Under the pieces are notes generated by a model. The model saw only the letters and a program-made list of their open reading frames with translations. It did no database searches and had not been told where the DNA came from. DNA of 25,102 bases, from the NCBI GenBank assembly GCA_026392815.1, contig JAPLBI010000058.1:1-25102 (forward strand), written 5' to 3'. The stretch's first letter is position 1, and the number at the start of each line of letters is the position of its first letter. This document shows positions 4,333 to 25,102 of the stretch, piece by piece. A program made the translations under genes and the position numbers. Source of the stretch: Actinomycetota bacterium (GTDB lineage Bacteria; Actinomycetota; Actinomycetes; Nanopelagicales; Nanopelagicaceae).

Positions 4333-4629
4333 ATGAGCGATCTAAAACTTAGCGAGTTAACTTCGGGTAAGCCGGTCAAGATCGAAAAAGATGGTCAAGC
4401 CATCTGCGTAGCCCGCATCGGCGATGAGGTATTTGCTGTTGATGACACCTGTTCACATTCAGATGCTTCTCTATCAGAAGGTGACATTACAGATTTCAAG
4501 ATCGAGTGCTGGCTTCATGGTGCAGAGTTTGATCTTCGTACAGGCGAAGCGTTAACTCCGCCAGCAGTTGCACCAATTAAGACTTATTCAGTAAGCGTTG
4601 ACGGAGACTCCGTCACGGTAGATGCGTAG
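4333..4629 (+). CDS. Rieske-type [2Fe-2S] ferredoxin inside the suf operon
   Basis: This 98-residue protein is a small soluble Rieske domain of the NirD/dioxygenase-ferredoxin kind. The cluster ligands are complete: C40-x-H42 in DTCSHSDASL and C59-x-x-H62 in ECWLHGAEFDL. The protein ends right after the fold, with no membrane anchor. It sits between sufD and sufC with no space, an arrangement known in other actinobacteria such as streptomycetes. It may supply electrons for cluster assembly or be a client of it; the sequence does not say which. It is often annotated as an aromatic dioxygenase ferredoxin subunit, but no oxygenase gene is nearby, so that name would mislead here. Confidence 0.92.
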   Translation: MSDLKLSELTSGKPVKIEKDGQAICVARIGDEVFAVDDTCSHSDASLSEGDITDFKIECWLHGAEFDLRTGEALTPPAVAPIKTYSVSVDGDSVTVDA

Positions 4630-4641
4630 CGAGGAAAATTG

Positions 4642-5394
4642 ATGAGCACTCTAGAAATCCGCGGACTTAAAGTCTCTGTTGAAACCGAGAACGGTTCAGT
4701 TGAAATTCTTAAAGGCGTCGACCTCACTATCAAATCTGGTGAAACCCACGCCATCATGGGCCCAAATGGTTCAGGAAAATCAACTCTTGCCTACTCAATT
4801 GCGGGACACCCAAAGTACACAATCACCAGCGGCACAGTCACGCTAGATGGTGCAGATGTTCTTGAGATGACTGTCGATGAGCGCGCTAAGGCCGGTCTCT
4901 TCTTGGCGATGCAATATCCAGTAGAAGTTCCTGGCGTATCTGTCTCTAACTTCCTTCGTACTGCAGCAACTGCGCTACGCGGCGAAGCGCCTAAGTTACG
5001 TACTTGGGTCGGCGAAGTTAAAGGCGCGATGGAAGCTTTGAGTATGGATCCATCTTTTGCACAACGCAATGTCAATGAAGGTTTCTCTGGTGGAGAAAAG
5101 AAGCGCCACGAAATCATGCAGCTAGAACTACTCAAGCCAAAGATGGCTATTCTCGATGAGACAGATTCAGGTCTAGATGTTGATGCGCTTCGCATCGTCT
5201 CTGAGGGCGTCAACCGTGCGAAGGCAGCGAATGATCTTGGCGTTCTATTGATCACTCACTACACCCGAATCCTCCGCTACATCAAGCCAGATTTTGTTCA
5301 CGTATTTGCCAACGGCAAGATCGTTGAACAAGGTGGACCAGAACTTGCAGATAAACTCGAAGCAAATGGGTATGCGGAGTACGTAACTGCGTAA
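4642..5394 (+). CDS. sufC: Fe-S cluster assembly ATPase SufC
   Basis: SufC is the ABC-type ATPase that drives conformational change of SufBD during cluster assembly. All nucleotide-binding motifs are there: Walker A GPNGSGKST (residues 40-48), the signature SGGEKKR (149-155) preceded by VNEGF, and Walker B MAILDETDSGLD with the SufC-specific ETDSGLD. The H-loop is in LLITHYTRILRYIKPDFVHV. There are no membrane segments. I start at the ATG 4642 (MSTLEIRGLK), 7 nt after GAGG at 4631-4634; the TTG at 4639 directly before it is an alternative. Length of 250 residues is normal. The gap to the Rieske gene is 12 nt. Confidence 0.97.
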   Translation: MSTLEIRGLKVSVETENGSVEILKGVDLTIKSGETHAIMGPNGSGKSTLAYSIAGHPKYTITSGTVTLDGADVLEMTVDERAKAGLFLAMQYPVEVPGVSVSNFLRTAATALRGEAPKLRTWVGEVKGAMEALSMDPSFAQRNVNEGFSGGEKKRHEIMQLELLKPKMAILDETDSGLDVDALRIVSEGVNRAKAANDLGVLLITHYTRILRYIKPDFVHVFANGKIVEQGGPELADKLEANGYAEYVTA

Positions 5395-5414
5395 CATCGC
5401 AATTACTAAATTTA

Positions 5415-6634
5415 ATGCCATTTGATGCAGTCGCTATCCGCGCGGATTTTCCGATCTTTGATCGCAAGATCCGTGATGGAAAGCGCCTGGTCTATCTAGA
5501 TAGCGGTGCAACAAGCCAGAAGCCGAACGTCGTTATCGATGCGGAGAGTAATTTCTACAGGCTACATAACGCGGCTGCCCATCGCGGAGCGCATCAATTA
5601 GCCGAAGAAGCTACTGAAGGAATCGAATCTGCTCGCCGAATTGTCGCTAATTTCCTAGGTGGAAAAGATGATGAAATCGTCTTCACCAAGAGTTCCACAG
5701 AGGCGCTAAATCTCTTGGCCTATTCGATCGGTTCAGCACCTGTTGGAAATAAGTTCCACCTAAACGCTGGCGATGAAATTGTGGTCTCCGAGATGGAGCA
5801 CCATGCCAATTTGATTCCTTGGCAACAACTAGCAGCGCGCACAGGTGCGGTTCTGAAAGCTTAGATCTCTCAAATATCGATTCTATTATTACGACGAAGA
5901 CCAAGATTGTTGCGCTAACTCACCAATCAAATGTTCTCGGAACTATTGTTCCATTGGAAGATTTGGTAAAGCGCACACACGATGTAGGCGCCGTTTTCAT
6001 CCTTGATGCTTGCCAATCTGTGCCGCATATGCCAGTTAACGTGGCAGATCTAGATATCGATTTCTTAGCCTTCTCTGGCCATAAAGCAGTTGGACCAACT
6101 GGAGTTGGAGTTCTCTGGGGAAGAGCGAATTTACTCGAAGAACTTCCGCCATTCCTATTTGGCGGATCGATGATCGAGTCAGTGACTATGACTGAAGCAA
6201 CTTGGGCACCAGCACCTCGTAAATTTGAACCAGGCGTTCCAAATATGGCGCAGATTGTTGGCTTAGGGGTCGCACTCAAGTACTTAACAAAGATCGGAAT
6301 GGGTGCGATCCATAAACATGAAATCGAACTCACTAAATATGCGCTAGATGCAATGTCCGGTATTGATTCACTTCGTATTCTCGGCCCTCTAAATACGGAT
6401 ATGCGTGGGGGAGCGGTTTCCTTCACACTCGGTGAAATTCATCCGCATGACTTAGGACAATTTTTAGATGATGCGGGAATCGCAGTTCGCACGGGACATC
6501 ACTGCGCCTGGCCACTAACTCGCAAGATGGGCGTTGCCGCTACAACCCGTGCAAGTTTCTATCTCTACAACACCACCGAAGATATCGATCAACTTTGTGA
6601 ATCGATCCTTGCTGCGCAGAAATACTTCGGCTAA
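5415..6634 (+). pseudogene. sufS: Cysteine desulfurase SufS, split by a frame-shifting internal loss at about 5859
   Basis: SufS takes sulfur from cysteine, using pyridoxal phosphate, and passes it to SufU. The first part (5415-5858) gives YLDSGATSQKPNVVIDAE, AAHRGAHQLAEEATEG and EMEHHANLIPWQQLAARTGAVLK, then meets TAG at 5862. The rest continues in another frame from 5861 (LDLSNIDSIITTKTKI) to 6634, with the cofactor lysine in SGHKAVGP (codon 6083-6085), the catalytic cysteine in TGHHCAWPL (6503-6505) and a normal C-terminus. In relatives about nine residues (such as WYGVTDDGR) stand between these parts. Here only two bases remain, so about 25 nt appear lost. Both halves are otherwise well conserved, so a sequence error is likelier than decay. 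No Shine-Dalgarno is seen before the ATG. The stop overlaps the sufU start. Confidence 0.9.
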
Positions 6635-7074
6635 TGCAACTCGATAACCTTTATCAGGAAGTGATCCTTGATCACTATAAGAACCCGCAGAACAAGAAGC
6701 TATCAGCGACTTACGACGCACAGGTTCACCACGTAAACCCTTCTTGTGGCGATGAAATTGATTTAAATGTAACGATCAAGAACGGCGAAGTATCCGCAAT
6801 CACTTGGGATGGCGTTGGTTGTTCGATCTCTCAAGCCAGCGTCTCGGTTCTCACAGACCTGTTAATCGGTAAGAGCATTTCAGATGCTTACCGAGTTTTT
6901 GATGAGTTTGTCGCCCTAATGCAGAGTAAAGGTGCGGTGACTGGAGATGAAGATCTCCTGGAAGATGCAGTCGCCTTTGCTGGCGTTTCTAAATATCCCG
7001 CACGAATCAAATGTGCCCTGTTGGGCTGGATGGCATTTAAAGATGCCAGCGTTCAAGCCCAATCCAAGGGCTAG
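6634..7074 (+). CDS. sufU: SufU, zinc-dependent sulfur acceptor/transferase
   Basis: SufU accepts the persulfide sulfur from SufS and hands it to the SufB scaffold. The 146-residue protein has the SufU/IscU fold with the three cysteines expected to bind zinc and sulfur: C38 in NPSCGDE (with D40), C63 in VGCSISQAS and C127 in RIKCALLGW. The insert between the second and third cysteine (MQSKGAVTGDEDLLEDAVAF) is the mark that separates SufU from IscU, which it matches. The start overlaps the sufS stop by one base. This means the operon carries the SufS-SufU pair used by Gram-positive bacteria rather than SufE. Confidence 0.95.
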   Translation: MQLDNLYQEVILDHYKNPQNKKLSATYDAQVHHVNPSCGDEIDLNVTIKNGEVSAITWDGVGCSISQASVSVLTDLLIGKSISDAYRVFDEFVALMQSKGAVTGDEDLLEDAVAFAGVSKYPARIKCALLGWMAFKDASVQAQSKG

Positions 7075-7113
7075 TAAGATCTAACCAGAGCAATCTACAA
7101 AACGGAGAAAATA

Positions 7114-7425
7114 ATGGCTGCAACAGTTGATGATGTAACAGAGGCGATGAAGGATGTCGTCGATCCCGAGCTCGGAATCAATGTTGTTGATCTTGGCCTT
7201 ATCTACGATGTAATGGTCGACGATAACAATATCGCCGTACTAAATATGACTCTGACATCTGCGGCTTGTCCATTGCAGGATGTAATCGAAGATCAAACTC
7301 GTCAAGCACTCGCACCTCATACTTCGGATGTAAAGATCAACTGGGTATGGATGCCACCTTGGGGTCCAGATAAGATTTCAGATGATGGGCGCGAACAACT
7401 ACGTGCGCTTGGTTTTACCGTCTAA
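7114..7425 (+). CDS. sufT: SufT-like MIP18/DUF59 family protein
   Basis: This 103-residue protein belongs to the MIP18 (DUF59, PaaD-like) family, small proteins that help mature Fe-S enzymes. The family core is clear: VVDPELGINVVDLGLIYDV, then MTLTSAACPLQDVI with the single conserved cysteine, and the WMPPWGPDKISDDGREQLRALGF ending typical of actinobacterial SufT. It is the last gene of the suf operon, 39 nt after sufU, with its own ribosome site CGGAG 8 nt before the ATG. The conserved position at the 3' end of suf operons in mycobacteria and streptomycetes supports the name. The exact biochemical step is not established for this group. Confidence 0.92.
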   Translation: MAATVDDVTEAMKDVVDPELGINVVDLGLIYDVMVDDNNIAVLNMTLTSAACPLQDVIEDQTRQALAPHTSDVKINWVWMPPWGPDKISDDGREQLRALGFTV

Positions 7426-7474
7426 CCTAAATTAGCGTTAGCGATCTAGCAATTTATTTGATCGGAAGCTCTTT

Positions 7475-9343
7475 ATGTCAATGCATGCTGGCTGGATGGC
7501 GCTTCGCACTTTAAGTTCTGATCAATCTGTAAAAAACGCCAAGTTAAAGCCCGGCACGTTAAAGCGAATATTTGCCTATGCGATCCCATATAAATCGGTC
7601 TTTGCGCTCTTTCTAATCTGTTTAATTGCCGACGCAGTTCTAACCGTGGCCACCCCGCTTCTGCTTCGCGAACTTATCGATAACGGAGTAATTCCTAAAG
7701 ATCGCTCAGTCGTCACAACTATGGCGGTAGCGGTTGCGCTCCTTGCTATCGCTAGCGCTCTGGTAAATATCGTTGTACGTTGGATTTCAGCAAAGATTGG
7801 CGAAGGTCTTATCTATGATCTTCGCTCTCAAGTCTTTCGCCATGTTCAAGAGCAGTCGATCGCATTCTTTACGCGCACTCAGACTGGTGCGTTAATTTCC
7901 CGAATTAATTCCGATGTTATTGGAGCCCAACGCGCATTTACATCCACATTCTCCGGAATCATCAGCAATGTTCTGACCCTGGTCTTGGTAGTTGGAACTA
8001 TGTTGGCGCTTAGCTGGCAGATCACCGTAGCCTCGCTTCTCCTGCTGCCAATTTTCTTAGCTCCAACAAAGTGGATCGGTTCACGCCTGCAGGGTTACAC
8101 CCGAGATTCATTTGAAGTAAATGCCCAAATGTCATCGACGATGACCGAACGTTTCAACGTATCTGGGGCGCTCTTGGTAAAGCTTTATGGTGATCTAAAT
8201 CAGGAATCAAAAGAGTTTAAGACCAAAGCACGTAAAGTCGCCGATATCGGTATCTCAATGGCGATGCTCAACACCTTCTTCTTCATTGCGTTGATAAGTA
8301 TTGCTGCTCTTGCCACTGCAATTGCTTATGGCATCGGCGGACATCTAGCGATTGATGGTTCGATAACCGTTGGAAGCTTGATTGCAATAACCACTTTGCT
8401 CGCTCGGCTTTACGGTCCACTGGTCGCTCTGGCCACAGTTCGCGTGGATGTTATGGGCGCGCTGGTCTCTTTTGAGCGAGTCTTCGAAGTCCTTGATCTA
8501 GAACCTATGGTCAAAGAGAAATCAGCACCGAAGAAGTTGGAAAGTAAGACGCCTGCAATTACCTTTAATGAGGTGCGCTTTACCTATCCGAAAGCACAAG
8601 AGATCTCTCTTGCCTCCCTTGAAGCCGCTTCTCTACCTGAGGTAAAGGACTCTGAAGAGATTCTCAAAGGAATCTCATTTGAAGTAAAACCTGGAACGGT
8701 AACAGCGCTCGTTGGTCCGTCGGGTGCAGGAAAGACAACTATCAGCGCGTTACTTCCAAGACTTTACGATGTCACGGGTGGTTCCATTTCGATTGATGGC
8801 GAAGATATTCGCAACTTCACCCTTAACTCACTTCGTGGATCAATTGGTGTTGTTATGCAAGATTCACATCTTTTCCACGCCACAATTACCGAAAATCTAA
8901 GATATGCCAAGAGCGATGCCACACTCGATGAGATGAAGGTAGCTTGTGAGGCAGCGCAGATTTGGGATCTAGTCTCATCTCTTCCAAACGGTTTGGAGAC
9001 AATGGTTGGAGAGCGCGGCCACCGCTTATCTGGCGGCGAAAAACAACGTTTGGCAATTGCAAGATTATTGTTGAAATCTCCAAGCATCGTAATTCTCGAT
9101 GAAGCAACCGCTCATCTTGATTCTGAAAATGAAGAGTTAGTTCAAAAGGCGCTAGCGCAAGCGTTATATGGACGCACCAGTATTGTGATTGCGCATCGCT
9201 TGAGTACCGTCATGGGCGCAGATCAGATAATCGTTCTTGAAAATGGATCCATCGCCGAACGCGGAAAACATGAGGAGCTAGTGCTAACTGGTGGGCTCTA
9301 TTCCGAGCTCTTTGCTCGTCAAGATTTGACCACGCCTAATTAA
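7475..9343 (+). CDS. ABC exporter, fused membrane and ATPase domains (ABCB-like half transporter)
   Basis: This 622-residue protein is a type IV ABC exporter half-molecule that should work as a dimer in the membrane. Residues of roughly 40-330 hold six membrane segments with the exporter-type coupling region (FFTRTQTGALISRINSDV). The ATPase domain has Walker A GPSGAGKTT (414-422), Q-loop MQDSHLFHATI, signature LSGGEKQR (from 518), Walker B IVILDEATAHLD (from 538) and H-loop IAHRLST. A charged insert of about 20 residues (AQEISLASLEAASLPEVKD) lies just before the first ATPase strand loop, as in related actinobacterial exporters. Substrate is unknown; multidrug or lipid export is only a family guess. 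GGAAG lies 6 nt before the ATG, and a second ATG follows 6 nt later. Its 3' end overlaps the convergent SURF1 gene. Confidence 0.93.
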   Translation: MSMHAGWMALRTLSSDQSVKNAKLKPGTLKRIFAYAIPYKSVFALFLICLIADAVLTVATPLLLRELIDNGVIPKDRSVVTTMAVAVALLAIASALVNIVVRWISAKIGEGLIYDLRSQVFRHVQEQSIAFFTRTQTGALISRINSDVIGAQRAFTSTFSGIISNVLTLVLVVGTMLALSWQITVASLLLLPIFLAPTKWIGSRLQGYTRDSFEVNAQMSSTMTERFNVSGALLVKLYGDLNQESKEFKTKARKVADIGISMAMLNTFFFIALISIAALATAIAYGIGGHLAIDGSITVGSLIAITTLLARLYGPLVALATVRVDVMGALVSFERVFEVLDLEPMVKEKSAPKKLESKTPAITFNEVRFTYPKAQEISLASLEAASLPEVKDSEEILKGISFEVKPGTVTALVGPSGAGKTTISALLPRLYDVTGGSISIDGEDIRNFTLNSLRGSIGVVMQDSHLFHATITENLRYAKSDATLDEMKVACEAAQIWDLVSSLPNGLETMVGERGHRLSGGEKQRLAIARLLLKSPSIVILDEATAHLDSENEELVQKALAQALYGRTSIVIAHRLSTVMGADQIIVLENGSIAERGKHEELVLTGGLYSELFARQDLTTPN

Positions 9344-10030
9344 GATTCTGCCGTAGATAATTAGCCCGGCGAAGAAGATCCATTGCAGCGAGTACGCAAT
9401 ATGTGGCCCATCGCTTAGTTCAGGCACTTGCGCAGGCACAGCTGGAGTCAGTGATGGTTGCGAACCGCTCAGTAAATCTAAGTAGAAACCTTCGGATGTC
9501 GAATCTGATTGGGCGTTTAACTTCGAGATCATTCCTGCGCCACTTGCAGGAAGTGCGAAGAAAGCGCCTTGTGGAAGTGATCTATCTAAGCGAAGACGAG
9601 CAGTTAGAGAAACTGCACCGGTCGGGGCAGTAGAGACAACTGGTGCGGTAGCTGCATCCTTGCCAGCTTTTACCCATCCACGATCAACCCAGAAAGATCG
9701 GCCATCGCTTGCGGTAAATCTAGTTAGTACCTCATAGCCATAGACGCCTTCAAAGTATCGATTCTTAAGAAGAATTTGATTGGTTGTATCGAAGGAACCT
9801 TCTACTGTAACCGTGCGCCATTCGTACTTCACAAAATTATCTTTTATCTCTTTCAATTCGACTGGAGTAAGAGTTAACTGCGCCTCAATACCTTGGTTAC
9901 GATCTTGGCGATCTATACCGCGTTGGAACTGCCACTGACTAGCCCAGAGACATCCCAAGATTAGTAATAGCGCGAGAAGATGCTTTAGAAAAGTATTAGA
10001 TTCCTTCTCTGAAGAGCGCTCACTAGACAT
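9284..10030 (-). CDS. SURF1 family cytochrome oxidase assembly protein
   Basis: SURF1 proteins help insert heme a into cytochrome c oxidase. The 248-residue product has the family layout: a membrane helix near the N-terminus (about 16-34, LLALLLILGCLWASQWQFQR), a soluble outer domain, and a second helix near the end (HIAYSLQWIFFAGLIIYG). The typical motifs W-Q..R..R, VEGSFD, NR.F.G..GYEVLT, VDRGWV and HIAYSLQWI are all seen. It fits with ctaA in the same window and implies an aa3-type oxidase. The last 60 nt overlap the 3' end of the ABC exporter on the other strand. TAGACT (10037-10042) ends six bases before the ATG, with no Shine-Dalgarno, suggesting a leaderless mRNA. Confidence 0.92.
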   Translation of the reverse strand: MSSERSSEKESNTFLKHLLALLLILGCLWASQWQFQRGIDRQDRNQGIEAQLTLTPVELKEIKDNFVKYEWRTVTVEGSFDTTNQILLKNRYFEGVYGYEVLTRFTASDGRSFWVDRGWVKAGKDAATAPVVSTAPTGAVSLTARLRLDRSLPQGAFFALPASGAGMISKLNAQSDSTSEGFYLDLLSGSQPSLTPAVPAQVPELSDGPHIAYSLQWIFFAGLIIYGRILIRRGQILTSKELGIEPTS

Positions 10031-10036
10031 GTGTTG

Positions 10037-10042
10037 AGTCTA
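10037..10042 (-). promoter_or_regulatory. SURF1 -10 element (TAGACT) at leaderless spacing
   Basis: On the minus strand TAGACT is followed by CAACAC and then the ATG of the SURF1 gene. The six-base gap would place the transcription start at or next to the A of ATG. No -35 consensus is clear. Confidence 0.45.
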
Positions 10043-10069
10043 GCCAATCGATAATTCTAGAAAGATTAT

Positions 10070-10363
10070 TTACTCTAGGGATTTCGCTTTATCTGAAACC
10101 AAGCCAGAGCCCGGCGCAAAAGACTCACGACCAGCATTTGCGATGACTACTGCAAAATATGGAAGCGTTACTGCGCCTAGGAGTGCAAACCAGCGATAAG
10201 GACTAGGCAGAATCACCGTCAGAATGAAGCAAAAGGTACGGATCATCATTGAATAGAAGTAGCGACGTTGACGCCCTGCTTGATCACGAGTCAGTGATGC
10301 AGGAGCGGCGGTGATGTCATAAACCGCAGGAGCCTTACTTGCTGACTTGCGTCGGATCGCCAT
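10070..10363 (-). CDS. DUF3099 family small membrane protein
   Basis: This 97-residue protein matches the actinobacterial DUF3099 family of unknown function. It has a basic N-terminus (AIRRKSASKAP), the family phrase VYDITAAPASLTRDQAGRQRRY, two membrane segments (about 37-53 and 56-75) and a short polar tail with SFAPGSG. Family members commonly lie close to fabG/fabI or cytochrome oxidase genes in actinobacteria. Here it is divergent from fabG and 39 nt upstream of SURF1 on the same strand, so the two may share a transcript, although SURF1 also has its own -10-like hexamer. TACTCT at 10370-10375 ends six bases before the ATG. Confidence 0.85.
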   Translation of the reverse strand: MAIRRKSASKAPAVYDITAAPASLTRDQAGRQRRYFYSMMIRTFCFILTVILPSPYRWFALLGAVTLPYFAVVIANAGRESFAPGSGLVSDKAKSLE

Positions 10364-10369
10364 AGCCCA

Positions 10370-10375
10370 AGAGTA
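10370..10375 (-). promoter_or_regulatory. DUF3099 gene -10 element (TACTCT) at leaderless spacing
   Basis: Minus strand TACTCT, then six bases (TGGGCT), then the ATG at 10363. There is no Shine-Dalgarno; the spacing repeats that of ctaA, SURF1, pheS and argC. Confidence 0.45.
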
Positions 10376-10398
10376 AGGCGCATCTCCGTGGCGCGCCC

Positions 10399-10438
10399 GC
10401 CGAAAACGGCAAGTTACGCGTAAGTAGCAGGGTAAGTT
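10399..10438 (+). promoter_or_regulatory. fabG promoter region with hairpin and TTACGCGTAA palindrome
   Basis: Upstream of fabG lie GCCG-AAAA-CGGC (10399-10410), a perfect 10-bp palindrome TTACGCGTAA (10414-10423) and TAAGTT (10433-10438), which ends 7 nt before the fabG ATG. The palindrome falls about 22-31 nt before the ATG, near the -35 position of a leaderless promoter. It could be an operator for fatty-acid genes. No regulator is recognised from the sequence. Confidence 0.4.
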
Positions 10439-10445
10439 TTGTCAT

Positions 10446-11162
10446 ATGTCCGAGGAATCAAAAGCAATCGCTCTGGTCACCGGCGGAAATCGCGGTATTG
10501 GATTAGCGATCGCGCAATCACTTCAAGCAGATGGCCATCACGTAGTAGTCACCTATCGCAGTGGCAGCGCACCAGCAGGATTTAGCGCAGTGCAGATGGA
10601 TGTGACTTCCTCTGAAAGCGTTGATGCCGCCTTCGCTGAAATTGAATCGCAATGGGGTTTGCCTGAAATCATCGTGGCTAACGCCGGCATCACCAAAGAT
10701 GGTCTAGTCATGCGAATGTCAGATGAAGATTTTGAGAGCGTTATCAACGCCAATTTAACTGGCGCCTTTCGCGTTGCAAGACGAGCGACCAAGGGTCTGC
10801 TTAAGTTAAAACGCGGACGACTTATATTTATTGGATCTGTTGTCGGGGGAGTCGGAGCTGCTGGCCAGGTTAACTACTCGGCAAGTAAATCTGGTCTACT
10901 CGGAATGGCTCGTTCTTTTGCTCGCGAACTTGGTTCCCGCGGTATTACCGCAAATGTGATCGCTCCAGGATTTGTCGAAACTGATATGACGGCAGCCCTC
11001 GATGAAAAACGCAGATCCGAAATCGCTGCTTCTGTGCCGCTCGGTCGTTTCTGCTCTGCAGATGAGATCGCAAAAGTAGTTAGCTTTGTGGCATCACCTG
11101 CAAGTGGTTACATCACGGGTGCTTTGATTCCAGTAGATGGCGGATTAGGAATGGGACATTAA
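10446..11162 (+). CDS. fabG: 3-oxoacyl-[acyl-carrier-protein] reductase FabG (MabA-like)
   Basis: FabG reduces 3-oxoacyl-ACP with NADPH in the type II fatty acid cycle. The 238-residue short-chain dehydrogenase shows the cofactor loop TGGNRGIG (12-19), the NAG motif at 79-81 (VANAGI), and the catalytic Ser131, Tyr144 and Lys148 (S-x12-Y-x3-K). The end, YITGALIPVDGGLGMGH, is that of the actinobacterial FabG1/MabA group. The stop is followed at once by the fabI start, the mabA-inhA order known from mycobacteria. The 5' side shows no Shine-Dalgarno and a TAAGTT hexamer 7 nt before the ATG. Confidence 0.95.
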   Translation: MSEESKAIALVTGGNRGIGLAIAQSLQADGHHVVVTYRSGSAPAGFSAVQMDVTSSESVDAAFAEIESQWGLPEIIVANAGITKDGLVMRMSDEDFESVINANLTGAFRVARRATKGLLKLKRGRLIFIGSVVGGVGAAGQVNYSASKSGLLGMARSFARELGSRGITANVIAPGFVETDMTAALDEKRRSEIAASVPLGRFCSADEIAKVVSFVASPASGYITGALIPVDGGLGMGH

Positions 11163-11871
11163 ATGGGAATTCTTCAAGGTAAAAATATTCTTGTAACTGG
11201 CGTATTAACAGATGGCTCGATCGCTTTCCATATTGCCAAGATTGCGCAGGAACAAGGCGCCAACGTACTGCTCTCTTCTTACGGTCGCGTAATGAGTTTG
11301 ACTACTCGTATTTCAGGTCGCTTGCCACAACCAGCTCCAGTCATCGAACTCGATGTTACAAATCAAGAACATCTCGATGCTCTTTCCGGTCGAGTTAAAG
11401 AACATCTCCCACACCTTGATGGCGTTGTTCACTCAATTGGTTTTGCCCCCGAAGCAGCGCTCGGTGGAAATTTCCTATTTAACGATGGCAGCGCGCCCAC
11501 TATTTAACGGAGGCGGCTCTGTTGTTGGCCTGGATTTCGATGCCACTGTTGCCTGGCCGAAGTACGACTGGATGGGCGTTGCCAAAGCAGCGCTTGAATC
11601 AACTTCTCGTTACTTAGCGCGCGATTTAGGAGCAGAAAATATTCGCGTTAACTTGGTTGCGGCTGGTCCGATTCGCACTATGGCGGCAAAATCGATTCCT
11701 GGATTCGACGAGTTCGAAAAAGTCTGGAACGAGCGCTCACCTTTGGAGTGGGATGTCACCGATCCAGTGCCTGCTGCCCAGGCCGCGGTAGCCCTTTTAT
11801 CTGACTGGTTTCCAAAAACTACTGCTGAAATCGTGCATGTAGACGGCGGTTTGCACGCGATGGGCGCTTAA
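11163..11871 (+). pseudogene. fabI: Enoyl-[acyl-carrier-protein] reductase FabI (InhA-like), split by an internal loss near 11478
   Basis: FabI reduces the trans-2 enoyl-ACP double bond with NADH, the last step of each elongation cycle. The first part (11163-11477) has TGVLTDGSIAFHIAKIAQEQ, LDVTNQEHL and VVHSIGFAPEAALGGNFL, then runs out of frame to a stop at 11507. The second part is in frame from 11479 to 11871: LTMAARPLFNGGGSVVGLDF, YDWMGVAKAALESTSRYLAR, VNLVAAGPIRT and the normal end IVHVDGGLHAMGA. Compared with streptomycete FabI, about 20 residues (NTPFESVATAMHVSAFSLKS in type) are missing, which is about 59 nt plus the frame change. The lost block contains the region of the catalytic Tyr of InhA. 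Flanks are well conserved, so error is likelier than true decay. Confidence 0.9.
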
Positions 11872-11880
11872 CGGTAAAGT
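11851..11880 (+). promoter_or_regulatory. Candidate promoter for the infC-rpmI-rplT operon (TTGCAC-18-TAAAGT)
   Basis: TTGCAC (11851-11856) and TAAAGT (11875-11880) are separated by 18 nt. The -35 lies within the last codons of fabI and the predicted start at about 11886 is just before the first hairpin of the infC leader. This gives a leader of about 250 nt. Spacing and sequence are reasonable for a main sigma factor; not proven. Confidence 0.45.
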
Positions 11881-11886
11881 TCGCCT

Positions 11887-12135
11887 CAGACCAGTGGCTT
11901 TGGCTACTGCAAGAGGAGCTCACCGCTCCCACCTTCTCGGCCCTAGAACTAGTACTAAATGTAACTAGAGGAGCTGGCTGGTTTGTCGAAAGTTAGCCGC
12001 CCCACGGGCGCGCTTTTCTTTCCTTAGCGGTGCGCGATTTCTGCGGTAAACCCCGGCTACTAAAGTCAAAATCGACAGAACGAAGTTCAAAAGAGAACAG
12101 CGTTCAAGAAGTAGCAAACCAACTAAGGAGCACAA
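11887..12135 (+). promoter_or_regulatory. Structured 5' leader of infC, no gene seen
   Basis: About 260 nt between fabI and infC contain no convincing ORF. Seen are: a 7-bp hairpin with a UUUG loop (11892-11898 with 11903-11909); GGAGC 11915-11919 pairing with GCTCC 11925-11929; a second copy of AGAGGAGCT (11912-11920 and 11967-11975), whose GGAGC could compete for the same GCTCC; and a terminator-like hairpin at 11998-12021. Leaders of IF3/L35/L20 operons in other bacteria are controlled by attenuation or by L20. This one may be too, but I recognise no known family. Confidence 0.45.
11998..12021 (+). terminator. Terminator-like hairpin in the infC leader
   Basis: CGCCC (11998-12002) pairs with GGGCG (12006-12010) over a 3-nt loop, then CGC and the T-rich run TTTTCTTT (12014-12021). 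It could end fabG-fabI transcripts or act as an attenuator inside the infC leader. The 5-bp stem is short, so strength is doubtful. Confidence 0.4.
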
Positions 12136-12138
12136 ATC
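12125..12138 (+). promoter_or_regulatory. infC ribosome binding site and ATC start
   Basis: AAGGAG (12125-12130), spacer CACAA, start codon ATC (12136-12138). The TAA that overlaps the site (12124-12126) closes the infC frame upstream. This is a strong Shine-Dalgarno joined to a non-canonical start, the pattern behind IF-3 self-control in Escherichia coli (AUU there). Confidence 0.85.
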
Positions 12139-12726
12139 ACAACTGAACCGCGCATCAATGACCGTATCCGCACACCTCAAATTCGTCTCATTGGACATAC
12201 CGGAGACCAAGTTGGAGTTGTAGATATCGACACGGCGCTACAGATGGCAGATGAAGTCGGATTAGATCTCGTAGAGATCGCACCTGATGCCACTCCACCT
12301 GTATGCAAAATTATGGACTTCGGCAAATATAAGTATGAAGTAGCCCAGAAAGCCCGTGAAGCCCGTCAGAACCAGACCCACATTGTGGTGAAGGAAGTGC
12401 GATTGACACCAAAGATTGAAAATCACGATTACGAAACTAAACGTAACGCAATTGTGAAATTCCTAAAGGGTGGCGACAAGGTAAAGATCACGATGAAGTT
12501 TCGCGGACGCGAACAAACTCGCCCCGAGCTTGGTTTTAAATTGCTACAACGTCTTGCAGAAGATGTTGCAGAAGTTGCTTTTGTTGAGTTCGCCCCTAAG
12601 CAAGAGGGTCGAAATATGACGATGGTGCTGGGACCGACGAAGAAGAAGACTGAAGCGGTTGCAGAGCAGAAGGCAGCGCGCGCAGCCAAGGAAAAGGCAG
12701 CGCTCGAGGCGGCAGAAGAGAAGTAA
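12136..12726 (+). CDS. infC: Translation initiation factor IF-3, ATC start codon
   Basis: IF-3 binds the 30S subunit and rejects wrong start codons and initiator pairing. Reading from 12136 gives 196 residues: [20 protein letters not shown], then the N-domain ([20 protein letters not shown]), [11 protein letters not shown] linker, and C-domain with [44 protein letters not shown] and RNMTMVLGP. The first ATG in frame is only at 12244 and would cut off the conserved N-terminus. An in-frame TAA at 12124 limits the start to 12127 or later, and the only near-cognate codon placed properly is ATC 12136, 5 nt after AAGGAG (12125-12130). Rare AUU/AUC starts are known for infC and allow IF-3 to limit its own synthesis. 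The C-tail is Ala/Lys/Glu-rich. Confidence 0.95.
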
Positions 12727-12790
12727 AGAGTTTTTCTAGTTTCAAAAGTTTTTCAAGTTTTATAAGACGACGAAGTACAGGAGAAGATAA

Positions 12791-12988
12791 ATGCCAAAGA
12801 TGAAGACCCACAGTGGCGCGAAGAAGACTTTTCGCGTAACCGGTTCAGGAAAGATCATGCACGAGCGTGCAGGCAAGCGCCACCTTTTGGAGCGTAAGTC
12901 ATCTCGCGTAACTCGTCGTTTGAGTACCGAACAAGCAGCAAAGCCAACCGTCGCAATGACAGCCAAGCGCATGCTTGGCCTTAAGTAA
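12791..12988 (+). CDS. rpmI: 50S ribosomal protein L35
   Basis: L35 is a small, very basic protein of the large ribosomal subunit. The 65-residue product has the full family pattern [34 protein letters not shown] and the end AKRMLGL. It has normal length. It lies 64 nt after infC and 14 nt before rplT, the usual infC-rpmI-rplT order, with GGAG 7 nt before the ATG. The 64-nt gap before it is T-rich, with AGTTTTT-like runs at about 12728-12765 and no hairpin I would call a terminator. Confidence 0.97.
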
Positions 12989-13002
12989 GGAGTGTGAATT
13001 AA

Positions 13003-13302
13003 ATGAGAGTAAAACGTGGAGTTCACGCTGCTAAGAAGCGTCGCACAACCCTTGAACGCGCTAGCGGATACCGCGGTCAGCGTTCCCGTCTTTTCACAAA
13101 GGCTGATTTCCGTCAGCTATGGATTCAGCGTATTAACGCTGCAGCCCGCGAAAACGGAATGACTTACAACCGTTTCATCCAAGGCCTAAAGGCTGCTGGC
13201 GTTGAAGTTGATCGTCGCGTTCTATCCGACATCGCTACAAATGATCCAGCAACATTTAAGACCCTTGTTGATCTAGCTCGCAAGAACCTAGTCAGCGCTT
13301 AG
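13003..13302 (+). CDS. rplT: 50S ribosomal protein L20, lacking about 20 internal residues
   Basis: L20 binds 23S rRNA early in assembly of the large subunit. The product reads [27 protein letters not shown], then directly [20 protein letters not shown] and the normal C-terminus. In all L20 proteins I know, a helical stretch of 20 residues stands between those parts (type KEQVTHSLVYAYRDRRARKG). Here it is absent and the frame is kept, which gives 99 residues instead of about 118. This 60-nt loss falls near 13112. Because the missing helix is part of the rRNA-binding extension, either the sequence is wrong or this L20 is abnormal. GGAG lies 10 nt before the ATG. Confidence 0.93.
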
Positions 13303-13345
13303 TTCTTCCAGGCTATTTGTTGCTAATTTAATTAAATATATAAAT

Positions 13346-14125
13346 ATGATTGAAAGCCTTCACTCGCCGCATATCGCGCGGGTGAAGGCTCTTATTTCAT
13401 CCCGCGGCAATAAAGAGCGCGGAGAGCATGGAGAATTTATCGCCGAAGGCCTGCAATGCGCCCGCGAAGCGTTAGCAGCAGCGTCTGGTCCAAAGATTAA
13501 AACTCTCTTTTTAACTGAGAGTGGCCAATCGCGCATCGATACCGCCGGTTTGGATACATCAAGCGTCGAAACAATTTTGGTTAGCGAGCCGGTAATGGCT
13601 GCAATGTCCTCAACGATTACACCGCAAGGAATCCTTAGCGTCTGTGAAATCGGGCGTAATGAATTTTCTGATCTAAAGTTGAGCGGTAGTTCAAGATTTA
13701 TTTATCTACATGAAATTCAAGATCCAGGAAATGCTGGAACAATTCTGCGCAGTGCCGACGCTATGGGTATTGATGCGGTGATCACATCCCCCGGAAGCGT
13801 CGATATGTATTCGCCAAAGGTAGTTCGCGCAACTGCGGGATCGCTCTGGCATATTCCGCTTTATTCGGGAATCACTCTTTCAACACTCTCCGAGAAATTC
13901 CCAACCATTACCAAGTTGGCGCTATCCGCGCAGGGAAAGACTTCGCTTTTAGAACTTGAAAAAGTTGGAGATTGTGTAGCGATATTCGGAAATGAAGCGC
14001 GCGGCATTGATACCTTGATTAGCGGCGATGTTATTGCAGTAAATATTCCAATGAAAGGCAACGCCGAGAGCCTCAATCTTTCCGCGGCAGCCTCAATTGT
14101 TATGTTCCATCTCGCTGCTCTTTAA
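13346..14125 (+). CDS. SpoU/TrmH-family RNA 2'-O-ribose methyltransferase
   Basis: Members of this family methylate a ribose 2'-OH in rRNA or tRNA with S-adenosylmethionine through a knotted SPOUT fold. The 259-residue protein has an N-terminal substrate-binding domain (ALISSRGNKERGEHGEFIAE, EALAA) and the SPOUT domain with motif 1 DPGNAGTILRSADA, motif 2 AIFGNEARGI and motif 3 IPMKGNAESLNLSAAASIVM. The N-domain points to the TsnR/RlmB-like rRNA methyltransferase group found next to rplT and pheS in actinobacteria; the target site cannot be read from the sequence. The start at 13346 follows AT-rich sequence with no Shine-Dalgarno, 43 nt after rplT. Confidence 0.92.
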   Translation: MIESLHSPHIARVKALISSRGNKERGEHGEFIAEGLQCAREALAAASGPKIKTLFLTESGQSRIDTAGLDTSSVETILVSEPVMAAMSSTITPQGILSVCEIGRNEFSDLKLSGSSRFIYLHEIQDPGNAGTILRSADAMGIDAVITSPGSVDMYSPKVVRATAGSLWHIPLYSGITLSTLSEKFPTITKLALSAQGKTSLLELEKVGDCVAIFGNEARGIDTLISGDVIAVNIPMKGNAESLNLSAAASIVMFHLAAL

Positions 14126-14170
14126 TCGGATCTTCGTTCAAATATCCCGCATCTTTGAAAGGTCACAGGT

Positions 14171-14176
14171 TAAGAT
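14171..14176 (+). promoter_or_regulatory. pheS -10 element (TAAGAT) at leaderless spacing
   Basis: TAAGAT ends six bases (TTCGCT) before the pheS ATG at 14183, so transcription would start at the start codon. No Shine-Dalgarno is present. TTGAAA at 14155-14160 is only 10 nt upstream and is too close to act as the matching -35. Confidence 0.5.
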
Positions 14177-14182
14177 TTCGCT

Positions 14183-15152
<970 letters not shown>

Positions 15153-15153
15153 T

Positions 15154-17610
15154 ATGCGCGCACCTCTATCTTGGATCCGTGAATTTGTAGATGTTCCGGC
15201 AAAGATTTCTGCCGAAGAAATCTCTAATGGCCTGATCCGCGTTGGCTTTGAAGTCGAAGAGATCATTGAAGCGGGCGCTGATTTAACGGGTCCACTGACC
15301 TTTGCCAAAGTTTTAACTATTGAAGAGATAACCGAGTTTAAGAAGCCAATTCGTTATGTTGGAATCGATTGCGGAGAGAAGGAAACTCGCTATGTAATCT
15401 GCGGCGCCACTAACTTCGCGGTTGGCGACATAGTCGTCGCCGCTCTCCCTGGCGCAGTCTTGCCGGGAGATTTCAAAATCGGAGCGCGCGAGACTTACGG
15501 AAAAACTTCTAATGGCATGATCTGTTCTTCACGCGAGCTCGGTTTAGGTGATGATCACTCAGGAATCATGGTCTTTGCCGAAGGCGAAGTTGAGATCGGC
15601 GCAGATGCAATCGCAGTTCTCGAAATTAACGACACAATTTTTGATGTTGCCGTTAATCCGGATCGTGGTTACGCGCTAAGTATTCGCGGTATAGCTCGCG
15701 AGGTAGCTGGCTCACTTGGACTTAACTTTAAGGATCCAGTTGAGCCACTTCGTGCTTTGAAGTTTGAAGAGACTGGCAAAGGCGTTGCTGCAAAGATTGA
15801 AGATCCTGCAACAGCATCGGTCTTCTACCTCCGCACGCTCTCAGATTTCGATCCATCTGCAACCACTCCGATTTGGATGCGACGTCGCATCGAGAAGATG
15901 GGAATGCGTTCAATCTCGCTAGTTGTGGATGTAACTAACTATGTAATGCTTGAACTCGGTCAGCCGCTACATGCATTTGATAAAGCGAAGATCTCTGGTG
16001 GCCTAACCATCAAGCGCGCTGGTAAGGCACAACCATTTACAACCCTTGATGGCCAAGTTCGCCAGCTTGATTCAGAAGATTTAATGGTCTGTGACGATAA
16101 GCAACCGTTGGCACTTGCAGGCACGATGGGCGGACAGTCTTCTGAGATATCCGAGAACACAACTGAAATTGCACTTGAAGCAGTTCGCTTTGATCCGGTA
16201 TTAATCGCTAAGAACTCTCGTCGCCATAAACTTTCCTCTGAAGCATCGCGTCGACTTGAGCGCAGCGTGGATCCATCGCTTGCTGAGTTTGCATCAGCGC
16301 GCTTTGTTCAGCTCTTAACTGCGCATAGTTCTGCCAAACATGTCGCAACGGTTGTTGCTGGCGAACCAAAGTATGCGCCTGTTGTGAAACTCGATCCGAC
16401 CTATATTTCAAAGATTCTGGGGCTAGAAGTTGCACCTGCTGAAATCGCGCGCGTTCTGCGAGTAATTGGCTGCGATGTAGATGAAAAGTCATTCACCGTT
16501 GATCCTCCATCTTGGCGCGCAGACTTGTTAACACCTTCAGATTTGGCTGAAGAAGTAGCCCGCATGATTGGTTACGACAAGATTCCATCGATCCTTCCAC
16601 CACGTCCAAATCACGCCAGCCTTACGCCAACGCAGAAACGGCGCCGAGCTATCTCTGCAATGCTCGCTGCACGCGGTTTGGCAGAAGTTCAAACATTCCC
16701 ATTTACCAATCAAGAGACCATCGATCAGATGGGATTCGTTGGAGAACGCGCTTCCACGTATCGCATCGCAAATCCAATGTCTGAAGAGTTCCCGCTCATG
16801 CGTGTTCACTTAGTACCAGGCCTTGTCGAAGTAGCGGCGCGAAACATCAGCCGAGGTGCAAAAGATTTTGCGATCTTTGAAATGGGTTCGATCTTCCGCA
16901 GCGCGCAGAGGCTGGTTCCAGCTGTTTCTCCGGTTATCGGAAGCCGTCCTGATGCCAAAACAATCCAATCGATCTATGCCAGCGTTCCACCACAGGCGTT
17001 TCATGTGGCAGGTGTATTGGTCGGTAAAGTTGAAAGCGAAGATTGGCAAGGCAAAGCTCGCCCCTATAACTGGCAAGATGCAATCGCTTATGCCCAAGAT
17101 ATCTTGCAACTTTGCAACCTTGAATGGACGATTAAACGTTCCGATTTTGCGCCGTGGCATCCTGGCCGCTGCGCCGAATTAATCGTTGATGGCAAGGCAG
17201 TTGCACATGCCGGTGAGATTCACCCACGTATTATTGCCAAGTACGGTTTGCCAGAACGAAGCGTTGCCTTTGCAGTTGGACTAAGTGCTTTGCCAGATTC
17301 TCAAATCGTTCGACCAACCAGAGTTGGCACTATGCCCGCGGCCGTTCAAGATGTCGCACTAATCGTCGATCAATCTGTCACAGCACTCGAAGTAGAAAGC
17401 GCTCTGCGCAGCGGTGCAGGGGATTTACTCGAGTCCATTGCACTCTTTGATCGCTACGACAAGATTGGTGACGGCAAAATCTCGCTGGCCTTCACGCTAA
17501 CTTTCCGCGCACCTGATCGCACTCTTACAGGGGCTGAGGTTTCAGAAATGCGCGAAGCGGCGGTAGTTGCCGCCGAAAAGGCCACTGGCGCCGTTCTTCG
17601 TACTGCATAA
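15154..17610 (+). CDS. pheT: Phenylalanyl-tRNA synthetase beta subunit
   Basis: PheT binds tRNA-Phe and edits mischarged Tyr-tRNA-Phe. The 818-residue protein has the expected order: N-terminal RAPLSWIREFVDVP, the tRNA-binding EMAP-like domain (about 40-150), the B3/B4 editing domain with GMRSISLVVDVTNYVMLELG and SSEASRRLERSVDP, the B5 domain (DPPSWRADLLTPSDLAEEVA), the inactive class II core (EVQTFPFTNQ) and the C-terminal FDX-ACB anticodon-binding domain ending in RTLTGAEVSEMR. Length is normal and unbroken. The gene starts one base after the pheS stop. Its own TAA (17608-17610) lies inside the first ARG box of the following arg operon. Confidence 0.96.
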   Translation: MRAPLSWIREFVDVPAKISAEEISNGLIRVGFEVEEIIEAGADLTGPLTFAKVLTIEEITEFKKPIRYVGIDCGEKETRYVICGATNFAVGDIVVAALPGAVLPGDFKIGARETYGKTSNGMICSSRELGLGDDHSGIMVFAEGEVEIGADAIAVLEINDTIFDVAVNPDRGYALSIRGIAREVAGSLGLNFKDPVEPLRALKFEETGKGVAAKIEDPATASVFYLRTLSDFDPSATTPIWMRRRIEKMGMRSISLVVDVTNYVMLELGQPLHAFDKAKISGGLTIKRAGKAQPFTTLDGQVRQLDSEDLMVCDDKQPLALAGTMGGQSSEISENTTEIALEAVRFDPVLIAKNSRRHKLSSEASRRLERSVDPSLAEFASARFVQLLTAHSSAKHVATVVAGEPKYAPVVKLDPTYISKILGLEVAPAEIARVLRVIGCDVDEKSFTVDPPSWRADLLTPSDLAEEVARMIGYDKIPSILPPRPNHASLTPTQKRRRAISAMLAARGLAEVQTFPFTNQETIDQMGFVGERASTYRIANPMSEEFPLMRVHLVPGLVEVAARNISRGAKDFAIFEMGSIFRSAQRLVPAVSPVIGSRPDAKTIQSIYASVPPQAFHVAGVLVGKVESEDWQGKARPYNWQDAIAYAQDILQLCNLEWTIKRSDFAPWHPGRCAELIVDGKAVAHAGEIHPRIIAKYGLPERSVAFAVGLSALPDSQIVRPTRVGTMPAAVQDVALIVDQSVTALEVESALRSGAGDLLESIALFDRYDKIGDGKISLAFTLTFRAPDRTLTGAEVSEMREAAVVAAEKATGAVLRTA

Positions 17611-17642
17611 ATATGCGCTAAATTGCATATTTATGCTATCCT
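17605..17642 (+). promoter_or_regulatory. argC operator: two ARG boxes and a leaderless -10
   Basis: GCATAAATATGC (17605-17616) and its exact reverse complement GCATATTTATGC (17625-17636) are 20 bp apart, centre to centre. Each is a near-palindrome GCAT-N4-ATGC, the form of ArgR binding boxes, and paired boxes at about two helix turns are how ArgR hexamers bind. TATCCT (17637-17642) follows at once and ends six bases before the argC ATG, so ArgR binding would cover the promoter. An argR gene lies in the operon. Arginine-dependent repression is inferred. Confidence 0.8.
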
Positions 17643-17648
17643 CATTCC

Positions 17649-18683
17649 ATGAAAATCGGAGTTATTGGAGCTAGCGGCTACGCGGGGGGAGAACTCCTGC
17701 GTTTATTGGCTGGGCACACAGAGTTTGAAGTTTGCTGCGTTACGGCCCATAGCAATGCGGGCGAGCAAATCGTTTCGGTACATCCGCAGTTAACTTCTTA
17801 TGCAGGTCAATCTTTTTCATCCTTTAAGGCCAGCGATTTCGAACAATGCGAGCTGATTTTCCTTGCGCTGCCACACGGCGAGAGCGCAGCAGTTATCGCA
17901 TCCCTTAGCCCAAAAGCAAAGTTTGTTGATCTTGGAGCTGACTATCGTTTAGAAGACGGTGCTAAGTGGGAAAAGTATTACGGTGGAACTCACGCTGGTA
18001 CATGGACCTATGGCGCCCCAGAGCTTCCAGGAGCGCGTGCAAATATCGCAAAATCTTCCAAGGTCGCTAATCCTGGTTGTTACGCCACAGCGATTGCTTT
18101 AGGTACCGCACCTGCAGCAAAGATTGCAGATCTGAGCGATGTTGTTGTTGTCGCAGCATCCGGAACGACAGGTGCAGGTCGTAGCGCGAAGATTAATTTG
18201 ATTGCAAGTGAAGTTATGGGAAGCCTAACCTCTTATAAATTCGGGGGAGTCCACCAGCACACTCCTGAAATCGAAGAATCTATAACCCGCGCTACGGGAA
18301 CGGCGACGAAGATCTCCTTCACGCCAATTCTTGCGCCAATGCCGCGGGGAATTCTGGCAACCATCACCATGAAAGTGAACTCTGCGGTGACGACTGAGGC
18401 AGCTCACAAGATTTATACCGAAGCATATAAAAGTGAAGAATTTGTAAAGGTGTTGCCGCTTGGGCAAATGCCACAAACATCTTCAGTTCTTGGAAGTAAC
18501 TATGTTGCGATACAAGTTGCAGTTGATGAACACGCCAATCGTTTAGTCGTTAGCGTGGCAATTGATAATTTGGTTAAGGGTGCGGCTGGTCAAGCCATTC
18601 AGAACGCCAACATCATCTGCGGTCTTTCAGTACCGCTGCTTCTTGTGCCGCAGGACTTAAGAGTTCGGGTGCTTTGGATTTAA
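17649..18683 (+). CDS. argC: N-acetyl-gamma-glutamyl-phosphate reductase, 3' end lost
   Basis: ArgC reduces N-acetylglutamyl phosphate with NADPH, the third step to ornithine. The protein shows the cofactor motif GASGYAGGELLRLL (8-21), LALPHGESAA, DLGADYRLED, YGAPELPGAR and the active cysteine C144 in NPGCYAT. HQHTPEIEE and APMPRGILATI are also typical. True ArgC sequence ends at about residue 327 (KGAAGQAIQNANIICGLS, codon ending 18629). The last 17 residues are argJ sequence read in the wrong frame. Relatives end with about 10-14 more residues and a stop before argJ, so the natural terminus and stop are missing. The ATG has no Shine-Dalgarno and lies six bases after TATCCT. Confidence 0.93.
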   Translation: MKIGVIGASGYAGGELLRLLAGHTEFEVCCVTAHSNAGEQIVSVHPQLTSYAGQSFSSFKASDFEQCELIFLALPHGESAAVIASLSPKAKFVDLGADYRLEDGAKWEKYYGGTHAGTWTYGAPELPGARANIAKSSKVANPGCYATAIALGTAPAAKIADLSDVVVVAASGTTGAGRSAKINLIASEVMGSLTSYKFGGVHQHTPEIEESITRATGTATKISFTPILAPMPRGILATITMKVNSAVTTEAAHKIYTEAYKSEEFVKVLPLGQMPQTSSVLGSNYVAIQVAVDEHANRLVVSVAIDNLVKGAAGQAIQNANIICGLSVPLLLVPQDLRVRVLWI

Positions 18684-19753
18684 CGTTGATTGTAAATAAC
18701 GGCCCTAAATTTGATGCGGCAGCGGTTTACACATCAAATCAAGTTGTGGCAGCTCCAGTTATTTGGAGCAAGCAAGTCACCAAAGAGAAGATAGTGCGCG
18801 CCGCAATTCTAAACTCAGGTGGTGCTAACGCATGCACAGGGCCACAAGGTTTTGCCGACACTCACAGAACGGCAGAGCATGTGGGCGAAGTACTCGGCAT
18901 TTCATCTGGTGAAGTAGTTGTCTGCTCAACGGGTTTAATCGGTGAACTACTCCCGATGGAGAAGATTATTTCTGGCATAGATCAGATTTCCAAAGTCCTA
19001 TCGACTGATGCGTTGCAAGATGTAGCAAGTGCGATCATGACAACCGATAGCGTTTCCAAGATTGCCAACTTTAAGAACGATCACTTCGAAATATCCGGAG
19101 TCGCCAAGGGAGCCGGAATGCTGGCGCCCGCTCTGGCCACAATGCTTTCGGTTGTAATGACAGATGCTCTTTTGCCAGATAACGCGCTAGAGATATTCCA
19201 AAGAGTTTGCGATCGTACCTACAACCGAATCGATTCTGATGGTTGCACATCAACTAACGACACTGTGCTGCTGATGGGTTCTGGCGCCAGCGGATATGGC
19301 CCGAGCGAGCCTGAACTAGAGAGCGCGCTGATGGAGATCTGTGGTTCTTTGTCACAACAACTAATCGAAGATGCCGAAGGATCAACAAAGACTGTGGCGA
19401 TCGAGATCAAGAACGCTGCTTCTGAAAGCGACGCAGTAGAAGTTGCTAGAGCATGTGCCCGAAATAATTTATTGAAATGTGCGATCTTCGGTGGAGATCC
19501 AAATTGGGGTCGAGTGCTGGCTGCAGTCGGTACTGCACGAGCTCAATTGAATCCGCTAGATATAGATGTAACACTCAATGGGGTGCAAGTTGCTAAGTCG
19601 AGCGCACCCTTCGAGGATCGCAATAAAGTTTCATTTGCGGATCGCCTGGTAACAATCGAAGTTGATCTCAAGGTTGGTAACTACAACGCAACTGTCTTTA
19701 CCAATGATCTCTCTCATGACTATGTTCACGAGAACTCGGCCTACGCAACATGA
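18632..19753 (+). pseudogene. argJ: ArgJ bifunctional glutamate N-acetyltransferase, start lost at the argC junction
   Basis: ArgJ moves the acetyl group from N-acetylornithine to glutamate, recycling acetyl in ornithine synthesis. From 18632 the frame reads TAASCAAGLKSSGALDLTLI, which aligns a few residues after the usual N-terminus, but no start codon lies in frame before it; a TTG at 18674 would cut off conserved sequence. The rest is complete: LNSGGANACTGPQG, KGAGMLAPALATML with the Thr where the precursor cleaves itself, DSDGCTSTNDT, NLLKCAIFGGDPNWGRVLAAVG and the normal end YVHENSAYAT. About 60-90 nt covering the argC end and argJ start seem to be lost. The stop overlaps the argB start (ATGA). 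Confidence 0.88.
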
Positions 19754-20535
19754 TCGTCGTTAAATTCGGTGGCCATGCCATGAAGGATGAAAATGGTGGT
19801 TTCGCAAAGGCAATAGCGTCAGCGCAAGAGAGCGGTGTGAAGCTAGTTGTGGTCCACGGTGGTGGCCCACAGATCGATGCGGCGCTCAAGGAAGAAGAGA
19901 TAGCTTCGGAATTTATTGGCGGCTTCCGCGTCACCACCCTTGAAATCTTCGAAGTTGTAGAAAGAGTTTTGGTAAACGAAGTTGGTCCAGAGGTTGTCAA
20001 TTCACTTCGCCGAGCCGGAGTTAACGCAGTCGCGCTATCTGGCCGCACCAGTGAATGCTTGATCGCCGAACCGCTTCGCAAATTAGTTGATGGCTCGCCA
20101 GTCGATCTAGGTTTAGTTGGAGTAATCACTGCAGTCAATCCACAGGCGATCAACAGCGCTCTAAAGGGCGGGCAAGTTCCAGTGATCTCACCGATCGCCA
20201 CCGATGAAAACTTCAAAGGGGGACTTAACGTCAATGCCGATCTCGCAGCCGCTGCGATCGCAGGCGCGCTCAGTGCTGAAAGTTTGATCATCATGACCGA
20301 TGTTGCCGGCATCTATCGCTCATGGCCTGATACTTCATCTCTGATTTCATCTATCACTTACGCTGAATTGGATGCAATGAAATCAGCATTTGCTGAAGGT
20401 ATGGCGCCGAAAGTTAAGGCATGCCTTGATGCGATAGATGGCGGAGCAAGTGCAGTAAGGATTATCGATGGAACCGATCCATCGGCCTTCGCAATGGCGT
20501 TGGCTAACTCTGGTGGAACATTGGTGACGAAATGA
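19750..20535 (+). CDS. argB: Acetylglutamate kinase
   Basis: ArgB phosphorylates N-acetylglutamate, the second step to ornithine and usually the step inhibited by arginine. The 261-residue amino acid kinase has KFGGHAM (5-11), the substrate loop VVHGGGPQI, GGFRVTT, the NVNADLAAAAIA motif and the ATP-site region IIMTDVAGIY and GMAPKVKACLDAI. It begins directly at the first beta strand. It therefore lacks the N-terminal helix of about 30 residues that many arginine-inhibited actinobacterial enzymes carry, so it may be less sensitive to arginine; that is inference. The gene overlaps argJ and argD by 4 nt each. Confidence 0.95.
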   Translation: MIVVKFGGHAMKDENGGFAKAIASAQESGVKLVVVHGGGPQIDAALKEEEIASEFIGGFRVTTLEIFEVVERVLVNEVGPEVVNSLRRAGVNAVALSGRTSECLIAEPLRKLVDGSPVDLGLVGVITAVNPQAINSALKGGQVPVISPIATDENFKGGLNVNADLAAAAIAGALSAESLIIMTDVAGIYRSWPDTSSLISSITYAELDAMKSAFAEGMAPKVKACLDAIDGGASAVRIIDGTDPSAFAMALANSGGTLVTK

Positions 20536-23642: not shown

Positions 23643-23650
23643 ACCCGAAA

Positions 23651-24931: not shown

Positions 24932-24932
24932 A

Positions 24933-24964
24933 AGCCACGCGGGCTAGCGTTTTCGCACGTTTTT
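24933..24964 (+). terminator. Weak terminator-like structure after tyrS
   Basis: Just after the tyrS stop AGCC (24933-24936) can pair with GGCT (24942-24945), then GCG-TTTT-CGC (24947-24956) and a run of five T (24960-24964). The stems are only 4 and 3 bp, so it may end the arg-tyrS transcript only in part. Confidence 0.35.
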
Positions 24965-24966
24965 AC

Positions 24967-24978
24967 GCATAAATATGC
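24967..24978. promoter_or_regulatory. ARG-box-like palindrome between tyrS and the downstream promoter
   Basis: GCATAAATATGC here is identical over all 12 bases to the first argC box at 17605-17616. A second half-site TTGCA follows at 24985-24989 but its partner half is poor, so this is a single box with a half box. It lies about 58 nt before the -35 of the strong promoter at 25036, and 36 nt after tyrS. Confidence 0.55.
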
Positions 24979-25035
24979 AAATTTTTGCAATTTAGAGGCT
25001 ATGACCAATGCCACTGGTAATCGGGCTAGGCCGAT

Positions 25036-25064: not shown

Positions 25065-25102
25065 TACGCTCCTTGCTGTGTGAACGGACGATTAGGCCGT
25101 AC

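Follow-up and report, generated by a model that had tools for sequence, protein, structure and literature searches.

Errors at scaffold joins and local assembly errors occur in metagenome-assembled genomes and lead to incorrect protein-coding sequences, and in assemblies produced with IDBA-UD and CLC, Ns were inserted despite overlapping flanks, as described in the passages of Chen et al. drawn on here (2020, PMC7111523). Gap estimates between adjacent contigs can be negative in the course of scaffolding, according to parts of the description of Meraculous (PMC3158087), and a partial source for ALLPATHS-LG likewise refers to negative gaps between adjacent contigs in its output (PMC5368935). 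The locus presented here resembles the errors in the passages of Chen et al. in that joins give wrong coding sequences and Ns stand where there is no real gap (2 of 21 N-runs), whereas blunt joins that drop 20–160 nt are found here and not in these passages (PMC7111523). The likeness to the passages on Meraculous and ALLPATHS-LG would lie in adjacent contigs for which the estimated gap is zero or negative, a case that the program must resolve by joining; there, negative gaps represent real overlaps that are closed with reads, whereas here the true distance is positive and sequence is lost (PMC3158087, PMC5368935). Literature searches gave no direct match to this very error and yielded general papers only. 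Programmed bypassing, inteins and introns all involve extra DNA inside a gene; as in these systems, the DNA of the genes described below is not read straight through, but here DNA is missing.

The window, i.e., the whole stretch of 25,102 nt that was analysed, belongs to the draft genome of a lake bacterium (1.23 Mb, 207 contigs, 82% complete), in which it forms contig C116. The closest finished genome, identified by a search of genome contigs with the PheT protein of the window (99% identity), is the chromosome of ‘Candidatus Planktophila lacus’ MMS-21-148 (NZ_CP016769.1, locus L047). Over the 19,762 columns aligned, positions 5280–25102 of the window are 95.9% identical to this chromosome in a global alignment, which revealed six losses of 20 nt or more, five of them in core genes and one at the stop codon of pheT. 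The identity of ribosomal protein L20 is based on PF00453 and that of FabI on the source names of its homologues; sufS, pheS, argC, argJ and pheT are names assigned from the sequence. The five affected genes are regarded as essential or core.

All six junctions were placed on the forward strand. In three genes, the missing block breaks the frame: 25 nt of the P. lacus sequence are absent from sufS (5858..5859), 59 nt from fabI (11477..11478) and 38 nt from pheS (14844..14845). The 60 nt missing from rplT (13103..13104) leave the frame intact and L20 with 99 residues instead of 119, and the 54 nt missing from the argC/argJ overlap (18630..18631) remove both the stop of argC and the start of argJ. 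The sixth difference, 22 nt at the pheT stop (17603..17604), adjoins the near-repeat AGCATAA/TGCATAA; the PheT frame stays readable, and this difference may be natural. No N was found at any of these junctions and the contig is continuous there, and none of the six has a single base shared between the two sides, by which natural deletion between short repeats was ruled out for the five coding sites. Gaps on the opposite side of the alignment also occur in intergenic DNA of the window (e.g., 24 nt after 13298) and were set aside.

The sequence-only reading from which this analysis started had reported five genes with a short missing block, and the global alignment places all of them at the positions it gave. 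The sizes it had estimated were exact for sufS, fabI, rplT and pheS, and too large for argC/argJ (60–90 nt); the sixth site, after 17603, had been omitted. Its tally of frame changes (two −1, two +1 and one zero) was slightly off, as the lengths of the losses in sufS, fabI, rplT, pheS and argC/argJ are 1, 2, 0, 2 and 0 modulo 3.

A scan of the genome for further losses of this type, which had been proposed as a check, proved productive. Sixty-seven of the other 206 contigs were taken, of which 22 read N throughout and three were limited to 20,000 bases; together with the window, the readable set comprised 46 contigs and 409,430 bases, and 45 of these contigs could be aligned to P. lacus (93.7% identity over 396,261 columns). 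A gap was considered clean if at least 24 of 30 positions matched on each side and no N lay within 40 nt. Altogether, we have identified 32 clean losses of 20–200 nt (median 55.5 nt), spread over 22 of the 45 aligned contigs, versus only seven clean insertions of the same size range, while clean gaps of 10–19 nt were evenly distributed (12 losses and 10 insertions), as expected from natural change. The clean count does not include 56 losses and 39 insertions of at least 10 nt with messy flanks, nor 18 losses and 15 insertions close to Ns; a clean loss of 270 nt, which lies in a tandem repeat, was likewise set aside. Twenty-five of the 32 losses lie inside called genes and 17 of these 25 are not multiples of three; since the simple ORF caller picked an antisense ORF over rplT, the rplT and argC/argJ junctions were tallied as lying outside genes. 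Among in-gene gaps of 1–19 nt of any class, only 47 of 107 are multiples of three, which makes the modulo-3 argument soft. No shared base was found at 20 of the 32 junctions, and no rule is visible in sizes, frames or junctions. The density of losses is higher in the window (6 in 25 kb) than elsewhere (26 in 371 kb, p 0.009), which may reflect how the window was chosen.

Features of the lost blocks themselves gave no sign of a cause. Hairpins (mean fold z 0.006 over the 32 blocks), odd base composition (G+C content 0.471 versus 0.475) and repeats (an 18-mer shared with the fetched contigs in one of the 32 blocks) were all rejected.

The places where the draft does mark gaps are faulty as well. 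The 46 readable contigs contain 21 N-runs with lengths from 1 to 106. Compared with the corresponding distance in P. lacus, 14 of them are wrong by over 10 nt; two of the 21 stand where this distance is negative (−15) and there is no gap to fill. Such wrong lengths argue against Ns as length-preserving masks. Additionally, a called gene in contig C41 (L227, 2068–2256) carries a 94-nt stretch twice, one base apart, the two copies being 73% alike; P. lacus is close to the second copy and more distant from the first, a pattern expected if contigs of two strains had been joined without being merged. Two further tandem copies, exact or near-exact, are located in genes of C23 (L136, around 6180; 26 nt, with a shift of the frame) and C24 (L137, around 396; 51 nt); both stretches are single in P. 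lacus, and the copies are possibly unmerged contig overlaps. Near-tandem repeats as a class show no clear excess: about 409 kb of the draft contain 4, and the 1.46 Mb of the P. lacus chromosome contain 10.

A separate observation concerns C28 (L141, around 4308–4613) and C55 (L241, around 11343–11613): the draft has once what P. lacus has twice in succession, with copies of about 306 nt in the first case and about 270 nt in the second. These were discarded as candidate duplications of the draft, the second copy belonging to the reference; the single copies represent either a real difference or a collapse of the repeat.

Identity of the window to P. lacus ranges from 0.81 to 1.00 in 250-nt steps, and its sharp changes along positions 5280–25102, with stretches at 1.00 alongside others near 0.81–0.87, would be due to recombination between strains or to a mosaic assembly. 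In flanks of 300 nt, clear switches were observed at three joins: 5858 (0.83 left, 0.98 right), 11477 (1.00 and 0.87) and 17603 (1.00 and 0.89). The change is slight at 14844 (0.91 and 0.94) and 18630 (0.87 and 0.93), and at 13103 the right flank scores 0.86 if inserted bases are counted and 0.98 without them. The mean contrast between left and right at the six joins is 0.083, versus 0.031 at random positions of the window (p 0.001). Outside the window, it amounts to 0.035 versus 0.028 with 300-nt flanks (26 joins, p 0.06) and to 0.034 versus 0.025 with 500-nt flanks (25 joins, p 0.016); over all 32 joins, the contrast at 100 nt is not significant (p 0.18). Around N-runs, significance is reached with 100-nt flanks (p 0.02) but not with flanks of 200–500 nt. 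Joins thus probably coincide with switches between strains in the window, and elsewhere they may do so.

We estimate at about 95% the probability, as judged from sequence comparison, that the five losses in core genes are assembly artefacts; the cell's own genes are almost certainly intact. The sequence-only reading had preferred an artefact too, and this preference is supported by the presence of the blocks in P. lacus and in the relatives that run across the sites (see below), by the losses throughout the readable part of the draft, the wrong N-gaps, the apparently unmerged overlap in C41 and the switches at some of the joins in the window. The cause can be narrowed further with less certainty: most likely, these are blunt joins without the intervening 25–60 nt, which arose from the scaffolding of a mixture of strains. 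The record would be a scaffolded draft, probably built from short reads of mixed, closely related Planktophila strains, the contigs of which would stop where the strains branch in the assembly graph. The scaffolder would then put these contigs in order, probably by means of read pairs. A positive gap estimate would lead to Ns of roughly guessed length; with an estimate of zero or less, the ends would be joined directly, and a real 20–160 nt would be dropped or an overlap left unmerged. Of this scheme, we infer the mixture of strains, the scaffolder as the agent and the step of gap estimation.

The artefact could also have arisen before scaffolding, in the graph or consensus step of the assembler, through false overlaps, popping of bubbles or dropping of uncovered bases, an explanation we consider rather unlikely. 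Removal of uncovered bases would equally suit losses that carry no Ns and, in 20 of the 32 cases, no shared base, and unsupported local sequence figures as a separate type of error in the passages of Chen et al. (PMC7111523). Against it, the N-runs of wrong length and the duplicated overlap in C41 point to scaffolding, and false overlaps should leave shared bases, which are lacking at all six junctions of the window. The biological conclusion would be the same if this explanation were true.

For the comparison with relatives, we used 100 loci, 20 from one search and 80 from named genomes, P. lacus included, and counted as spanning those in which the gene runs across the site; in the others, the gene is not part of the locus, is less than 50% identical or is cut by the end of a contig. 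By the criterion of the script used, the missing block is present in one frame in every spanning related locus: in 54 of 54 for sufS, 45 of 45 for fabI, 64 of 64 for rplT and 74 of 74 for pheS. The term ‘conserved block’ of the sequence-only reading fits only in part: within L20, the rplT block falls in one of the less conserved regions. The argJ start was found in 49 loci, and in 12 more, flagged for this reason alone, the alignment starts with residue 3; the test of argC was uninformative because the window itself passed it. The argC/argJ site was read in L065, L085 and L100; L065 and L100 continue through it, and the alignment of L085 ends near the end of its contig. For the 19 genes probed, a script counting frame breaks and gaps of at least seven residues registered four events in the window versus two in 916 gene copies of 79 related loci, which is beyond chance; the script does not catch the argC/argJ loss, and a twentieth probe, an ORF antisense to rpmI/rplT with 17 further events in related loci, was left out of the count.

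Both events in the related loci are located in L044 (BGON01000002.1, Actinomycetota bacterium BS11). Its frame breaks affect two neighbouring genes (around 17087–19771), the pieces of which overlap with no visible loss; a long-read assembly with errors at single bases may be the reason.

At the protein level, among the best 120 listed of 8000 scored homologues, an L20 of 99 residues occurs in this window only and the remaining 119 have 114–161 residues; P0002, P0010 and P0011 match the L20 of the window closely outside the missing block. FabI was searched with a 130-residue query piece, and the search was used for P0121, P0122 and P0125 only. P0122, a FabI of 226 residues encoded on a JGI contig of 15,000 bases and 98% identical over the 130-residue query, carries the block that is missing in the window and, in comparison with the 255-residue FabI of P. 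lacus, is short of a net 29 residues close to the start. P0122 thus comes from an assembly made elsewhere, in which fabI is nearly the same and a loss of this kind affects a different place. A phage origin of the window found no support, with zero matches in the phage collection (‘near’ mode).

These comparisons bear on the possibility that the strain really carries the deletions, its genes being in decay or tolerant of the damage, which we regard as highly improbable. The uninterrupted contig at the junctions, free of Ns, speaks for true deletions. Nevertheless, they would have struck five core genes within 13 kb, three of them with a frameshift, while the relatives are intact; the short L20 is unique among the best 120 listed homologues, and similar losses occur throughout the readable draft. 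Nor was a second intact copy of rplT, sufS, fabI, pheS or argC/argJ found in the own genome, which is 82% complete and in which the search may not have reached contigs reading N.

We also searched the own genome for the missing blocks. Those of rplT and fabI were not found elsewhere in it by a DNA search without positive control, nor were those of sufS and pheS by patterns with up to three mismatches, all in a genome that is 82% complete; argC/argJ was searched by its flanks only. That the losses are real and the products restored by an unknown step at the RNA or protein level (trans-splicing of scattered pieces, bypass or recoding) is the least probable explanation of all, with nothing in its favour beyond the broken frames and with the blocks not found elsewhere in the genome within the reach of these uncontrolled searches, a shared 18-mer in just one lost block, no rule in sizes, frames and junctions and a different loss in P0122 all standing against it. 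The data call for no such repair mechanism, and it is very improbable that even some of the short losses are present in the cells of the strain and are tolerated there or repaired by an unknown route.

The losses are almost certainly no feature of the cell, and new biology is not indicated. As 22 of the 45 aligned contigs of the draft contain at least one clean loss of 20–200 nt that is not marked, a frameshift, a short protein or a ‘missing’ gene in this draft should not be taken, without reads, as a sign of gene decay, recoding or absence, and other drafts scaffolded the same way may be affected too.
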